This document shows, in pieces, positions 3,244-32,171 of a stretch of DNA of 64,000 bases (position 1 is the stretch's first letter; each line of letters opens with the position of its first letter). The position numbers and the translations under genes were made by a program. This DNA comes from a gamma proteobacterium symbiont of Ctena orbiculata (lineage in GTDB: Bacteria; Pseudomonadota; Gammaproteobacteria; Chromatiales; Chromatiaceae): the NCBI GenBank assembly GCA_003058495.1, contig QBVC01000024.1, positions 62,001 through 126,000 on the forward strand, written 5' to 3'. The notes beneath the pieces are model-generated. The model was not told the DNA's origin. It made no database searches and saw only the letters and a list, made by a program, of their open reading frames with translations.

Positions 3244-3657
3244 ATGCTAGGCAACAACGAGACAATTCTGCTGATCGAAGATGACAGGGTCGACATCATG
3301 ACCGTTCAGCGAGCACTGCAAAAAAACAATTTAAGCAACCCCCTGCATGTCGCCAGAACCGGACTGCAGGCCCTGGACATGCTGCGAGGCGCAAATGGCG
3401 TGGTAAAATTAGACCCCTTGCCCGCGCTCATACTTTTGGATCTCAATTTACCCAAAATGAGCGGCATCGAATTTCTTCAGGAGCTGCGCAAGGATCCGCA
3501 ACTTTCGGCGCTCCGTATAATCGTGCTGACGTCGTCCAACGAACCGCAGGACCGAGCCGCTGCATTCGAATATGAGGTTGACGACTATATCGTCAAACCG
3601 CACTCATTTGACGAATTCACCCGCGCCGTTGCGGCAATACTTGCGCTCTGGGATTAG
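3244..3657 (+). CDS. Rcp1-like single-domain response regulator
   Basis: A 137-residue stand-alone receiver. The acidic pair (IEDD) is near the N-terminus, the phospho-acceptor Asp is in LILLDLNLPKMSG, and the conserved Thr/Ser and Lys lie in IVLTSSNEP and DDYIVKPHSF. There is no output domain, so it probably acts through protein contacts or as a phosphate carrier. The long loop before LILLDLNLP is typical of the Rcp1 subgroup. The ATG at 3244 is chosen because it follows the kinase stop by 16 bases and has a GACAGGA-type ribosome site; an in-frame earlier ATG would overlap the kinase gene. It forms an operon with the kinase and is its likely partner. Confidence 0.9.
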   Translation: MLGNNETILLIEDDRVDIMTVQRALQKNNLSNPLHVARTGLQALDMLRGANGVVKLDPLPALILLDLNLPKMSGIEFLQELRKDPQLSALRIIVLTSSNEPQDRAAAFEYEVDDYIVKPHSFDEFTRAVAAILALWD

Positions 3658-3863
3658 AAAGGGCATCCTCGTCATGGTGTGGTTTGCCAACGCCTCTTCG
3701 CGGCCGCGCCTACGCCAGCCGATAACCTTGATCTCGCTTGGGTATTCACATATTCATGCAGTCTGCAACAGCGACTTTAGGGCGCACTGCATATATTACA
3801 TAGGCTTGGTGACAGCGACTCATACTCCAAACCGATAACGGAAAAGATTTACAGGGAAGTAAG

Positions 3864-4028
3864 ATGAACAGACCTATAGTCCACGAACAATCAACTTTCC
3901 ACTCCACTCAACCTGCCCGCTGCATAGCGAAAGACCGAGGCAGGTCAATCCAACCATGGTGCGGTCCCTGCCAAGTCGGGACCTGCCAATCACGCATCAG
4001 GATTTTAATTCCTTCACACCATGACTAA
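3864..4028 (+). CDS. candidate Cys/His-rich leader peptide overlapping the receptor start
   Basis: A 54-codon frame starts at ATG 3864 behind a good ribosome site (GGGAAG at 3854-3859) and ends with TAA at 4026-4028, eight bases inside the TonB-receptor gene. The peptide has Cys at 20, 33, 36 and 41 and His at 7, 13, 52 and 53, with a thioredoxin-like Trp-Cys-Gly-Pro-Cys motif at residues 32-36. The receptor's own start has poor ribosome-site spacing, so its translation may depend on ribosomes finishing this frame. A Cys-X-X-Cys upstream frame coupled to a TonB-receptor gene is known for copper control in Bordetella (CruR); this peptide is not recognisably homologous. The frame is certain; expression and role are inferred. 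Confidence 0.5.
   Translation: MNRPIVHEQSTFHSTQPARCIAKDRGRSIQPWCGPCQVGTCQSRIRILIPSHHD
3911..3987 (+). promoter_or_regulatory. mutually exclusive hairpins in the receptor leader
   Basis: Segment B (GGCAGGTC, 3939-3946) can pair with either A (ACCTGCC, 3911-3917) or A' (GACCTGCC, 3980-3987). The A-B hairpin encloses a small CGCT-GCAT-AGCG hairpin. If B pairs with A, a further hairpin GGTCCC/GGGACC (3963-3968 with 3978-3983) can form; that hairpin overlaps A' and excludes the B-A' pairing. The whole switch lies inside the leader-peptide frame and 34 bases before the receptor ATG. No known riboswitch motif, including a cobalamin box, was recognised. Confidence 0.45.
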
Positions 4029-6102
4029 CTGCAAACTAATACTCCTGATTATCGGTTTAGCGGCAAACATCCCGGTCTATGCGGCCCATGAGCGACAGCT
4101 GGATCACTTCCTCTCGCTAAGCCTGGAAGAGTTGATGGAGCTGGAAGTTACGATCTCCACCGATACCAAGAAGCCACTATCCCAGGCACCTGCAGCCGTA
4201 ACCGTAATCACTGAGGAAGACATCAAGGCTACCGGCGCCACCAACCTTGTAGATATCCTGGAGAGCGTCCCGGGAATCCACGTCAGAGCCAACCAATTCG
4301 CCTTTCGGCCGCTGGTCCAGTTCCGCGGTACCAGCGCCATTCAGACCCTGCTGATGATCAACGGTGTTTCGATGCGGGACTTGATGTGGGGTTTCGGCAT
4401 CTTTTGGAAAGGCATACCAAGCAGCATCATCGATAGAGTGGAAATAATCCGTGGCCCAGGATCCGCACTGTTTGGCGCCGACGCCTCGGCCGGGGTAGTG
4501 AACGTGATAACAAAAACCGCCGGGAAAATAGACAGCACTGAAGTCGGCGTCAGGAGCGGCAGCTTCAACAGCAACAGTGGCTGGCTGCAGTATGGCGATA
4601 GCTGGAATGGGTTTGACATCGGCCTCACCATCGATCTCTCCGGCACGGACGGCCACGATCCATTGGTCGAATCCGATGGCCAGACACAACAGGATCTGGC
4701 ACTGAACACTGAGGTATCGCACGCACCCGCAAATGCACAATACGGCTGGGATAATCAGGATATACGCTTCTCTGTCGCCAACCGTGGATGGCGCCTTCAT
4801 CTGGACTACATGCGTCATAGCAAGGTCGAAGTCGGACTCACCGGCGCAGGCGTTCTAGATCCCCTGACCAGGGCCGAGGATAGCCGTTTCAACCTCGATC
4901 TACTCTATAACAACCCTGATCTGAGCGATGTCTGGGGCATAGATGCAGAACTTCGCTATCAGGACCTTGACTATTCATCGGGCGACGGCTTTCAGGAACG
5001 CCCTCCCGGTGCATTCGGCGGTGACTATCCGCAGGGCGTGATCAATCGAATGCGTTCCGCTGAACGCAGGATGGCCTTCGAGGTCAGCGCTCTCTATTCC
5101 GGTTTCAACGCCCATTCGCTGCGCCTGGGCGTTGGCTACACCTGGCAGGACCTCTACTACGTCAAGCAGTTGATCAATAGTGGTATAGGCCCGGATGGCA
5201 ACCTGCTAGCACCGGGAAGCCCGCTTGTGGATGTATCGGATACACCGTTTGCCTTCGCGCCTGAAAAGACCCGAACCATTCGCTATCTCTTTCTCCAGGA
5301 TGTCTGGTCGATGATGGATGATTGGCAACTGACTGCCGGGATCAGATACGACGACTACTCGGATTTCGGCGATACCCTTAATCCGCGATTGGCGCTGGTT
5401 TGGCAGACCAGCGACAGAATCACAACGAAACTGCTTTATGGCAGGGCATTTCGCCCGCCATCCTTCCAGGAACTCTTCGCAGAAACCTCATTTTCGAAAC
5501 CCAATCCGGACCTCGATCCTGAGCGCTCTGAAACGGTTGAATTGATCCTAACCTTCATCCCCAGCAGCGACCTGACCATCGGGATCAATCTCTATCGATT
5601 GGATCAGTCTGATATTATCCGCGCAGTTACCTTGCCAGGTCAGAGCGATCGACAATTTCAAAACACAGGTGAACATGCCATTCGCGGAATTGAACTGGAA
5701 ACGAAATGGCAAGCGACAGAGAGCCTGAGATTCTCCGCGAACTATACCGTTAGAGACTCGGACGACAGTGAGTTTCGCGCGGTCGATCAACCAAAACAGG
5801 ATGCCTATGTGCGTACCGATTGGCAGTTCAACTCTGATTGGAACTGGAATATTGAGGCCAATTGGATTGGCGGAAGGACTCGCAGTGATAATGATTCCAG
5901 GGAGGCGCTTGACGACTACATCATAACCGACACCACTGTACGATATTCCGGCGTGAATGGATGGGAATTCGGATTTTCAGTTCGCAACCTGTTCGATGAG
6001 GATGCAAGGGAACACACAGCATCCTCCGTTGCCGAGGACCTGCCGCTTGCGGAACGAAATGTGTATGCAGAGATTCTGTATAAGTTTTCCGGCGGTTCGT
6101 AA
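4021..6102 (+). CDS. TonB-dependent outer-membrane receptor
   Basis: A 693-residue protein with a signal peptide (about residues 1-21). A TonB-dependent plug domain follows (about 50-160): VTVITEEDIKATGATNLVDILESVPG, then MINGVSMRD, then DRVEIIRGPGSALFGADASAGVVNVITK. The rest is a 22-strand-type beta barrel rich in aromatic residues, with a RAFRPPSFQELF motif and a C-terminal beta signal ending in LYKF plus four residues. It would move a bound ligand (iron chelate, cobalamin or another scarce nutrient) across the outer membrane using TonB energy. The two genes behind it, a YfiR-like protein and a hybrid kinase, suggest that transport or ligand presence is also sensed. Its ribosome site is weak and its start overlaps the preceding small frame. 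Confidence 0.92.
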   Translation: MTNCKLILLIIGLAANIPVYAAHERQLDHFLSLSLEELMELEVTISTDTKKPLSQAPAAVTVITEEDIKATGATNLVDILESVPGIHVRANQFAFRPLVQFRGTSAIQTLLMINGVSMRDLMWGFGIFWKGIPSSIIDRVEIIRGPGSALFGADASAGVVNVITKTAGKIDSTEVGVRSGSFNSNSGWLQYGDSWNGFDIGLTIDLSGTDGHDPLVESDGQTQQDLALNTEVSHAPANAQYGWDNQDIRFSVANRGWRLHLDYMRHSKVEVGLTGAGVLDPLTRAEDSRFNLDLLYNNPDLSDVWGIDAELRYQDLDYSSGDGFQERPPGAFGGDYPQGVINRMRSAERRMAFEVSALYSGFNAHSLRLGVGYTWQDLYYVKQLINSGIGPDGNLLAPGSPLVDVSDTPFAFAPEKTRTIRYLFLQDVWSMMDDWQLTAGIRYDDYSDFGDTLNPRLALVWQTSDRITTKLLYGRAFRPPSFQELFAETSFSKPNPDLDPERSETVELILTFIPSSDLTIGINLYRLDQSDIIRAVTLPGQSDRQFQNTGEHAIRGIELETKWQATESLRFSANYTVRDSDDSEFRAVDQPKQDAYVRTDWQFNSDWNWNIEANWIGGRTRSDNDSREALDDYIITDTTVRYSGVNGWEFGFSVRNLFDEDAREHTASSVAEDLPLAERNVYAEILYKFSGGS

Positions 6103-6169: not shown

Positions 6170-6709
6170 GTGACGACAAGGCTGTTGATACATATCACAC
6201 TGTTACTGCTTTGGTGTATTTCACCTCAGGCAAATGGCGTTGAGCAACGGAGCGACGAGAATCTATTGAAAGCAGTCTTTATCTACAATTTCGCCAAGTT
6301 CACACGCTGGCCCTCCGATACATGGCCCGAGAACGGAGCTGCCCTAAGAATCTGCGCTATCGGAAATGATGAATTGTCTCAAGCGCTGGTAAGGTTGAAC
6401 GGCAGAAAAGTCAGGGAGCTTCCGGTTACCATCGAGCACAGGGAGGAGAGAAATGACCTGGACAACTGCCATCTCCTCTATCTTGCCCGCTCCATGCAAC
6501 ATCTAATGATTGAAATCAATGAATCCATTCGCACCAAACCCGTTCTTACGGTCAGTGAAATTACGGATTTTTCCAAGCAAGGGGGCATGATTGAGCTTTA
6601 TCGTATAAACAGCAGGATACGATTTAAAATCAACTTGCAGGCCACTCGCGAGGCAGGGCTCGACCTCAGCTCCCGCCTTCTCAAGTTGGCCGTTGACGTA
6701 AAGAGGTAG
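6170..6709 (+). CDS. YfiR-family (DUF4154) periplasmic protein
   Basis: A 179-residue protein with a signal peptide (about 1-23) followed by the YfiR/DUF4154 pattern: LLKAVFIYNFAKFTRWP near the N-terminus, then a Cys-containing ICAIGND segment, NCHLLYLA, and near the end GGMIELYRINSRIRFKINLQA. In Pseudomonas, YfiR binds and restrains the periplasmic part of a membrane signalling enzyme. Here the gene ends 8 bases before the hybrid kinase, so that kinase is the likely partner. The start is a GTG at 6170 with little ribosome-site support, but it gives a complete signal peptide. Confidence 0.85.
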   Translation: MTTRLLIHITLLLLWCISPQANGVEQRSDENLLKAVFIYNFAKFTRWPSDTWPENGAALRICAIGNDELSQALVRLNGRKVRELPVTIEHREERNDLDNCHLLYLARSMQHLMIEINESIRTKPVLTVSEITDFSKQGGMIELYRINSRIRFKINLQATREAGLDLSSRLLKLAVDVKR

Positions 6710-6717
6710 CAATAATT

Positions 6718-9069
6718 ATGGATCTGTTGCGCAATGCCTCAATAAAACTCAAGCTTGAAGCCATCATACTGTTCATAACAGCCACGGTTCTGCTGCTCAG
6801 CCTGCTGTTGTTCATGGTTTTCGAGATCAACTCGGCACGCGGTGAAGCGGCAACCCGCCTGCAATCGCTGGCATTGCTCCTTGGCGCGAACAGTAGCGCT
6901 GCAATCACCTTCAGCGATCAGGATACCGCAAACGACATTTTGGCAACCTTATCGACGCAGCAAGATGTTATTGAAGCGACTATCACGCTGAATAACGGCG
7001 ACAGGTTTGCCCGCTACGTCTCCGCCAAGTTCGAAGCGACCAGCAAGCCAGAACGAGAGACCACGCCGGTCGCCTCCTACTTCAGACTGATCACCGTCGA
7101 GGAGCCGATCCTACTCGACGGCGAAGGCATCGGCACGCTGCACATTGTCGGCGATATGAGTAGAGCGAAATCGATTCTGCTGCAGCAGTCGCTTCTCGTA
7201 CTCGGTGTATACATCGTCTCCATGGTATTCGCATTCTGGCTCTCCAACCGCTTTCAGCGCCTGATCTCGAAGCCTGTTCAGCAACTGCTCCGCACCATGA
7301 AAAAGGTGGCGGTAAAGCGGGATTTCACACATCGGGCACACCGCCTGAGCAATGATGAACTCGGCAGCCTGGTGGATGGCTTTAATGCCATGCTTGACCG
7401 CATTCAAAAACACGACAGCAAACTCGCCGCGTATCATCAGGACCTGGAACGCCAGGTGACGGAACGCACCCGGGAGTTGAATACGGCAAAGAATGAAGCC
7501 GAGGCAGCGAGCCAGGCAAAGAGCGATTTTCTGGCCACCATGAGCCATGAAATACGCACACCGATGAGTGGAGTGATCGGATTTGCACATCTATTGAAGA
7601 AGACACAATTAGACGATCAGCAGGATGAGTATACAGAGATCATCATCAGCTCAGCTCAGAGCCTGCTTGAGATTATTGATGACATCCTGAATTTCTCCAA
7701 AATGGAAGCCGGGAAACTGTCCCTGGATTGCAGTAACTTTGCATTGCAATCCCTGATCCATGGAGTCGAAGTGCTGTTCACTCCAAAAGCCATGGAGAAG
7801 GGCCTTACCCTCTCGACCTCGGTCGGGGATAATATCCCCGCGATGCTGTATGGTGATCCCGCCAAACTGCGACAAGTGCTTATCAATCTGGTTGGCAATG
7901 CAATCAAATTCACAGACACCGGAAGCGTCAGTGTCAAGCTCGAAATGGAGGATCAGACAGAGCAACGGCTAATACTTAAAATTACCGTCTCCGACACGGG
8001 TATCGGCATCACCCCTGAACAGAAGTCCATGCTGTTTCAACCCTTTCAACAGTGTGATGGGTCGCTTACACGCAGCTATGGAGGTACCGGTCTCGGCCTC
8101 GTCATCGCTCAGCGCCTTGCGGATTTGATGGGCGGGGACATCAGGCTGACAAGCACGCCAGGCAGGGGTTCAACATTTATTGCACGCCTACGCCTTGAAG
8201 TTGCAAAACCTGTAAATGAATCCGGCCTGGCTGCAGTCGAGCCGCGTAAAATGCCTTCCTCGCCCGAATCCCGGAACAGGGATGAAAGCGGAGATCCGCT
8301 TTTCAGCAAATTGACTATCCTCGTTGTCGATGACAGCCAAGTCAACCTGACCCTAGCCAGCACGCTGCTGCGCAAAAAGGGGGCAAATATCATAGCCGTG
8401 TCGAGCGCATTCAAAGCCCTGGAGGTGATCCGGAAACAGGCGTTCGACCTTGTCCTCATGGATCTGGAAATGCCGGGAATGAGCGGTATTGAGGCGGCCA
8501 GAAAAATTCGCTCATTCCATAACTCGGAGAAATTACCGATCATTGCCGTTACCGCGCACATCCTACCGCAGAAGCAACAGGACGTCTTTGCCGCGGGTAT
8601 GGATGACCTGTTGGCCAAACCCTATCTGCCGGATCAGCTCTACACAATCATACGAAAATGGTCCGGTGACCATTACGACTCCGCCGCTGCAACAACGGTC
8701 GATTCAGAACTTGGAGATGAATCGGCTGTTTATAACCAACATGCCGCACTCGCCAGTGTGGAGAATGACAATAACACCGCTGACCTGATACTCGAGGAAT
8801 TTCTCCATATGCTGCCAGGCAGTGAAGCCGCCATGCGTGACGCCCTCGCGAACGGTGACCATTCTGCGCTCTACCAGGCCGCTCATAAACTGGCAGGTTC
8901 AGCCAGTTCGAGTGGCGCCTCCTCGATATACATTGGCGCTGTCACAGTTAAAGAGTCTTTAATGCAAGAGTCAGCAGATGCAGCTGACATCGAACAGCGA
9001 GTCAAGGCTCTCCTCGAGGAGACAGGCAAATTCAAGGACTATTTCGCCTCCAAAACCAAGACCAGCTAA
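6718..9069 (+). CDS. hybrid sensor histidine kinase (HAMP-HisKA-HATPase-REC-HPt)
   Basis: A 783-residue BarA-like phosphorelay kinase. Transmembrane helices near residues 16-36 and 158-178 flank a periplasmic domain of the CHASE8 type found with YfiR partners. HAMP lies at about 180-235, then HisKA with the phospho-acceptor His near 277 ([14 protein letters not shown]), and a HATPase with DTGIGI and GGTGLGL boxes. A receiver starts near 532 (ILVVDDS), with its Asp in [15 protein letters not shown]-terminal HPt domain has its His near 721 ([13 protein letters not shown]). The final target regulator is not adjacent. The order receptor, YfiR-like protein, CHASE8 kinase suggests one sensory unit. 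The kinase architecture is certain; the stimulus is unknown. Confidence 0.92.
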
Positions 9070-32095: not shown

Positions 32096-32171
32096 GGGGA
32101 CGTAGCTCAGCTGGGAGAGCGCGGCGTTCGCAATGCCGAGGTCGGGAGTTCGATCCTCCTCGTCTCCACCA
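32096..32171 (+). tRNA. tRNA-Ala (anticodon CGC)
   Basis: A 76-base cloverleaf: acceptor GGGGACG pairs with CGTCTCC, the D arm is GCTC-AGCTGGGA-GAGC, the anticodon stem is CGGCG/TGCCG with loop TTCGCAA (anticodon CGC, reading GCG), the T arm contains GGTTCGA-like GAGTTCGATCC, and CCA is encoded at the 3' end. The third acceptor pair is G-U. Confidence 0.95.

Follow-up and report, generated by a model that had tools for sequence, protein, structure and literature searches.

A short leader frame with a conserved translation start, possibly coupled to a TonB-dependent receptor gene in Candidatus Thiodiazotropha

The window, by which we mean the whole 64,000-nucleotide stretch of DNA that was analysed, contains a gene for a TonB-dependent receptor followed on the same strand by genes for a YfiR/HmsC-like protein and a hybrid histidine kinase, and the receptor gene is preceded by a short leader frame that runs into its start (Table 1). 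Upstream of the leader, Pfam identifies a kinase with a CHASE domain and a response regulator. Relatives of the kinase follow the receptor in L002 to L015 of the orthologous loci, which are numbered here from L002, the window's own, to L016. The same kinds of gene adjoin one another in the TOL_0244/TOL_0243 set (NF053590, NF053591, NF053592); the YfiR-like protein of the window scores above the curated cut-off, whereas the receptor and the kinase-domain matches fall under theirs. At gathering score, Rfam finds a single tRNA (32096..32168) in the whole window, and its three sub-threshold matches near the locus were judged to be due to chance. A promoter and terminator scan of 3560..4120 returned no terminator and one promoter-like match on the minus strand, where 0.6 were expected.

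Table 1. Features at the leader and receptor locus (window coordinates)
Feature	Position	Strand	Basis or remark
Candidate CsrA/RsmA-type hairpin UUAC[AGGGAA]GUAA over the ribosome site	3849..3862	+	12-mer match 10/12; local 30-nt fold
Translation-start block CARGGAWGTANNRTGANCAGAC: ribosome site, ATG/GTG start, first codons	3852..3873	+	16/23 invariant columns, six genomes
Shine-Dalgarno AGGGA of the leader frame	3853..3857	+	6 nt 5' of ATG 3864; -5.1 kcal/mol with 16S tail
54-codon leader frame	3864..4028	+	ATG to TAA; 8-base overlap with receptor start
AU-rich island TCAGGATTTTAATTC before the receptor ATG	3997..4011	+	12/15 invariant columns, six genomes
TonB-dependent receptor (Plug and barrel)	4021..6102	+	Pfam PF07715, PF00593
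YfiR/HmsC-like protein, likely operon	6170..6709	+	PF13689; NF053591 above cut-off
Hybrid histidine kinase CHASE8-HAMP-HisKA-HATPase-REC-Hpt, likely operon	6718..9069	+	Pfam

The first-pass annotation had described a 54-codon frame with a good ribosome site that ends eight bases inside a receptor gene whose own start is poorly spaced, and our computations agree with it on each of these points. AGGGA stands 6 nt from the leader ATG, and the TAA of the frame ends at 4028, past the receptor ATG at 4021; the closest AGGA to that ATG (3999..4002) is 18 nt away, and the computed pairing with what we take to be the 16S tail sequence is -5.1 kcal/mol for the leader frame vs +0.6 kcal/mol for the receptor. 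Translation of the frame also yields the four Cys (residues 20, 33, 36 and 41 of 54) and four His (7, 13, 52 and 53) that had been reported, including Trp-Cys-Gly-Pro-Cys (WCGPC). Two further elements lie within the leader. The first is a nested second frame (3956..4024) of 22 aa from an ATG at 3956, with a stop that overlaps the receptor start at +1 (ATGA); its computed Shine-Dalgarno (SD) energy is -8.7, and its counterpart in L003 extends to +25. The second is an inverted repeat, ACCTGCC/GGCAGGT (3911..3945), whose arms are kept in L003 with a divergent loop and whose fold energy is not significant.

An open frame at this position is by itself weak evidence: dinucleotide shuffling leaves the window's leader open 589 times in 2000, and the same stretch is also open in a second forward frame. 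Among the 277 ORFs of 40-80 aa in the window, at least four Cys together with at least four His occur in 3, compared with 17 of 1500 open shuffles; CxxC is found in 25 and WCxxC in one, which is the leader frame itself. The Cys/His content of the leader peptide is thus unusual, yet not decisive. Weak ribosome sites are frequent too, since 19 of the 41 ORFs of at least 280 aa in the six frames of the window have an SD weaker than -2.5, and 8 have one of +0.6 or weaker, with starts that were taken as the first ATG and are putative. The overlap by itself is ordinary, because a frame of at least 20 aa ends on the receptor start (within -6..+12) at 14 of the 15 orthologous loci (L002 to L016); at 8 of the 15 the SD of such a frame reaches -3 or better, and L011, L012 and L014, which lack the start block described below, are among them. 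The shuffles, the 277 ORFs of similar size, the common weak ribosome sites and the common overlaps all favour the view that the frame is open by chance and without function, the receptor starting independently. We nevertheless hold this to be quite improbable, given a start block that is conserved at a nearly fixed distance from the receptor in six genomes.

That start block was sought among 22 genomes of the genus of these clam symbionts, Candidatus Thiodiazotropha. Some match to the receptor was present in 52 of the 56 genomes of a first search, and an orthologue at E 1e-150 in 14 of the 22 genus genomes. Six of these 14 carry the block: the window's own genome (G000), G006, G016, G010, G004 and G020, which together represent only three lineages. 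The receptors of the five other carriers are 76-89 % identical to that of the window and are the closest to it; the block is absent from the remaining 8 orthologue-bearing genus genomes, where receptor identity is 62-69 %. The pattern was derived from the six carriers, so that an exact match in them is given by construction; with up to 2 mismatches allowed it occurs once per genome in 6 of the 22 genus genomes, solely at the receptor locus.

A regulon-wide role for the block was also considered and rejected. The window's own genome holds the block just once with up to 3 mismatches, and when up to 1 mismatch was allowed across 210 genomes of the order, the same six genomes were found plus a hit in G061 without a start codon.

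The alignment of the six carriers (L002 to L007) contrasts the block with what surrounds it. Invariant columns, counted over segments whose limits were chosen after the alignment had been viewed, number 9 of 56 at -230..-175, 16 of 23 in the block (-170..-148), 21 of 123 in the body, 12 of 15 in the AU-rich island (-24..-10) and 13 of 49 at -9..+39. Within the block the leader start codon varies between ATG and GTG only, both of them initiators, while the bases just 5' of it are free; the distance from the start codon to the receptor ATG is -157, -157, -158, -158, -167 and -166. The island is read in a different frame in L004, L005 and L006 than in L002 and L003. As judged from these alignments, the pattern that goes beyond chance is the conservation of the start block and not of the body, and it is the start block that carries the argument.

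The body of the leader drifts at the level of the peptide. After the start codon, 47 of 159 positions distinguish L002 from L003, with no indel, and the two share 26 of 54 residues; the differences fall 13/17/18 by codon position, which gives no third-position bias, and dN/dS between the two is 0.65 for the leader frame vs 0.15 for the receptor. The peptides of L004, L005 and L006 are unrelated to that of the window. Among the 22 genus genomes, 18 have some peptide match at E 1, and the only convincing relative is in G006 (49 %, 5.5e-12), the next best after it and the window's own genome having an E value of 0.04; no relatives were found at E 0.01 in 72,556 plasmid records. Judged by these comparisons, the leader peptide itself is not the conserved element.

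This bears directly on the earlier proposal that the Cys/His-rich peptide couples metal or redox sensing to translation of the receptor, as in a CruR-like leader, in which the nascent peptide would bind metal or sense redox state and so control the receptor. The likeness to the CruR (DUF2946) uORF before bfrG in Bordetella pertussis is that of a leader ORF ahead of a TonB-receptor gene with CxxC in the window's peptide, and the four Cys, the four His, WCGPC, and the retention of W32, C33 and C36 in L003 (as WCSCC) all fit it. CruR, according to those parts of PMC9426467 that describe its motifs, has CXXC at 90-93 and RAPP at 139-142 near its end, and acts via Rho termination. The leader frame here is unlike it in having 54 aa, no RAPP motif in the peptide and no family match, with CxxC common to the window and L003 only. 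Pfam gave no match to the leader peptide at E 10, and DUF2946 was not found in the window's genome at E 0.001 in a search that found it in 1 of 14 control genomes; the absence of visible homology to CruR, already remarked in the first-pass annotation, is upheld. Between L002 and L003, 5 of the 8 Cys/His positions are kept, as are 21 of the 46 remaining ones (Fisher p 0.46), so that Cys/His fare no better than the rest, and the peptides of L004 to L006 are unrelated. With a peptide that drifts and no preference for Cys/His, the sensing proposal did not find support; a sensing peptide is unlikely by these sequence criteria, and the specifically CruR-like form of it appears very improbable indeed.

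The frame has mostly been kept open while its codons changed. In L002 to L006 it extends as far as the receptor start, with 54, 54, 53, 53 and 56 codons, the first base of the stop being at +1 or +5, so that it is open in the window and in four of the five block-bearing relatives; L005 and L006 differ by indels of 11 nt and 2 nt that together preserve the frame. The exception is L007 (G020), which has lost one base from a CCC run relative to L006, so that its frame ends at -37, although the receptors of the two are identical at 1974 of 2000 bases. The first-pass annotation had named a frameshift as evidence against the leader if one were seen in a close relative with the receptor retained; this is the case once, and the other four keep the frame intact. 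As to the two features whose conservation was to be checked in relatives, the overlap is kept in these four and the Cys/His codons are not preferentially conserved.

How far this openness exceeds chance depends on the leader. After shuffling, 589, 366, 276, 152, 130 and 121 of 2000 sequences remain open for L002 to L007, respectively, and when the changes between L002 and L003 are placed at random, the frame survives in 759 of 5000 trials, or in 1097 of 5000 in the opposite direction. The joint chance that L003, L004 and L005 are all open is approximately 0.002 (0.15 x 0.14 x 0.076), a product that ignores kinship and leaves out the window, where the frame was first noticed; L007 counts against it.

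The computed SD energies lie between -5.1 and -5.4 for the leader frame in all six genomes and at +0.6 for the receptor in five, with L004 (receptor SD -4.3) as the exception; a well-placed receptor SD is thus missing in five of the six. L010, which has neither the block nor an overlapping frame, has a good receptor SD of -5.9, an observation from one lineage. Translational coupling is consistent with a conserved start ahead of a freely changing body and with a stop placed at the receptor start, and we lean, by a modest degree, towards a leader that is a short ORF kept for the act of translation and not for a particular peptide, and that is coupled to the receptor as a ramp or switch for translation. 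Ribosomes would enter at the conserved site (3853-3866) and translate 53-56 codons of freely drifting sequence up to a stop that falls on top of the receptor start, where the terminating ribosome, or the mRNA that it has opened, would permit initiation on the TonB receptor. What we infer is a translated leader on which the receptor depends and whose start is the target of a regulator, perhaps CsrA.

Several observations weigh against coupling: the block-less L011, L012 and L014 also have SD-led overlapping frames, the body gives no codon-position signal, L007 has its deletion, L004 has its receptor SD, and the window has its second frame from 3956. The claim of coupling made in the first-pass annotation consequently stands in part, strengthened by the conserved start, the frame open in four of five relatives and the weak receptor SD, and weakened by the broken frame in G020; on sequence evidence, coupling is supported, if not proven, and is slightly favoured.

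RNA structure was computed for the same leaders. With the body melted, the computed cost of exposing the receptor start falls in L004 to L007 from 11.4, 7.4, 6.9 and 7.5 to 5.6, 1.1, 0.2 and 0.2 kcal/mol (uncontrolled values) and changes little in L002 and L003. Coupling is usually accompanied by structure that hides the downstream start. Here, occlusion of the receptor start does not clearly exceed that in shuffled leaders, 13, 52, 18, 21, 17 and 5 of 60 of which were as occluded or more for the six leaders (the 5, for L007, is borderline); nor is the leader start clearly more structured than it is with shuffled flanks, the lowest count being 5 of 60 (L002, short context). An RNA fold as the conserved element was rejected, with z from -1.31 to +1.31 over two stretches in each of the six leaders; an exception is the 191-nt fold of the window at 3850..4040 (z -2.85), which 1 of 200 shuffles equalled.

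Other arrangements are found ahead of the receptor elsewhere. L013, L014 and L015 share a 32-aa frame that runs from about -88 to +8 relative to the receptor start and has an SD of -0.6 to +0.3; the same frame in L014, taken from a start that gives 58 aa, has an SD of -5.0. L008 (minus strand) and L009 have a different ORF of 27 codons, led by AAAGGA and located between 121 and 38 nt ahead of the receptor ATG, with a stop that begins 40 nt upstream of the receptor; the differences between the two fall 7/2/6 by codon position, with 2 synonymous and 8 non-synonymous codons. Eleven loci of a set of 16, among them L038, the record behind L010, were inspected for leader frames as well; with putative starts, the frames listed there include no short one that is led by an SD and stops at the start of the receptor. 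At L043, if the receptor ATG is placed at 2052, a gene for a large hybrid histidine kinase comes immediately before the receptor, its stop beginning at -4.

The sequence over the ribosome site resembles a binding site for CsrA. The block scores 10 of 12 in all six leaders against the CsrA SELEX consensus RUACARGGAUGU (given in a passage of PMC7652899); on the two strands of the window, 4 of 2256 GGA-anchored sites, the block's own among them, attain this score. ACA, GGA and GU are all present in L002 to L004, and only CA precedes GGA in L005 to L007. The hairpin over the ribosome site forms in the local fold, while the 191-nt fold pairs the site otherwise. AGGATTT of the island matches less well, scoring 8 or 9 in five of the six leaders, and the genome has one csrA match. 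The CsrA site is a lead only, because any SD contains GGA-like bases and so resembles such a site.

These same data can be read as showing that the block is an untranslated regulatory element (a CsrA/RsmA, small RNA or DNA site) that happens to resemble a start, with the open frame incidental. The body has no coding signal, the frame is broken in L007, overlapping frames are common at the receptor (14 of 15 loci), and the six leaders share a CsrA score that few GGA sites reach in a genome with a csrA gene, all of which such an element would explain; it would not account for an ATG or GTG at SD distance in all six genomes, nor for a frame open to the receptor start in five of them. We regard it as unlikely, while keeping it in serious consideration. 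As to control of the coupled leader ORF that we prefer, it is a tentative and rather doubtful suggestion that CsrA/RsmA or a small RNA gates its initiation and thereby indirectly controls the receptor-YfiR-kinase set, the peptide being irrelevant.

Two known systems bear comparison with such an arrangement, as far as they are set out in excerpts of the sources cited. In E. coli, iraD ORF27 (idlP) is a coupled uORF repressed by CsrA (PMC5574718; review PMC7652899); the leader is like it in being a short ORF with its own SD, a stop overlapping the downstream start and a CsrA-like GGA on the SD. It is unlike it in its downstream gene and in that the CsrA site here is predicted from sequence; the iraD ribosome site is moreover described there as hidden by structure, whereas occlusion of the receptor start here is not clearly above that of shuffles. 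If the suggestion is true, the logic of iraD ORF27 recurs at an unrelated gene. In Pseudomonas aeruginosa, the uORF uof of pqsR is opened by the small RNA PhrS (PMC8395346, also in excerpt); the likeness is of a downstream gene coupled to a leader ORF (here presumptively) whose initiation is the control point, and the difference is that folding shows no clear excess of structure at the leader start here over that with shuffled flanks.

The literature searched yielded nothing on this leader, and the TonB passages of PMC6461927, the one paper found in which both Thiodiazotropha and TonB occur, mention no leader ORF. The locus offers a caution against taking a chance CxxC for a metal sensor, and an example of how a leader ORF kept for translation may be told from one kept for its peptide: the start is conserved, the frame is mostly open and the codons are free. 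It also adds the TonB-receptor gene set of a chemosynthetic symbiont as a candidate for a coupled uORF, with a lead towards CsrA.
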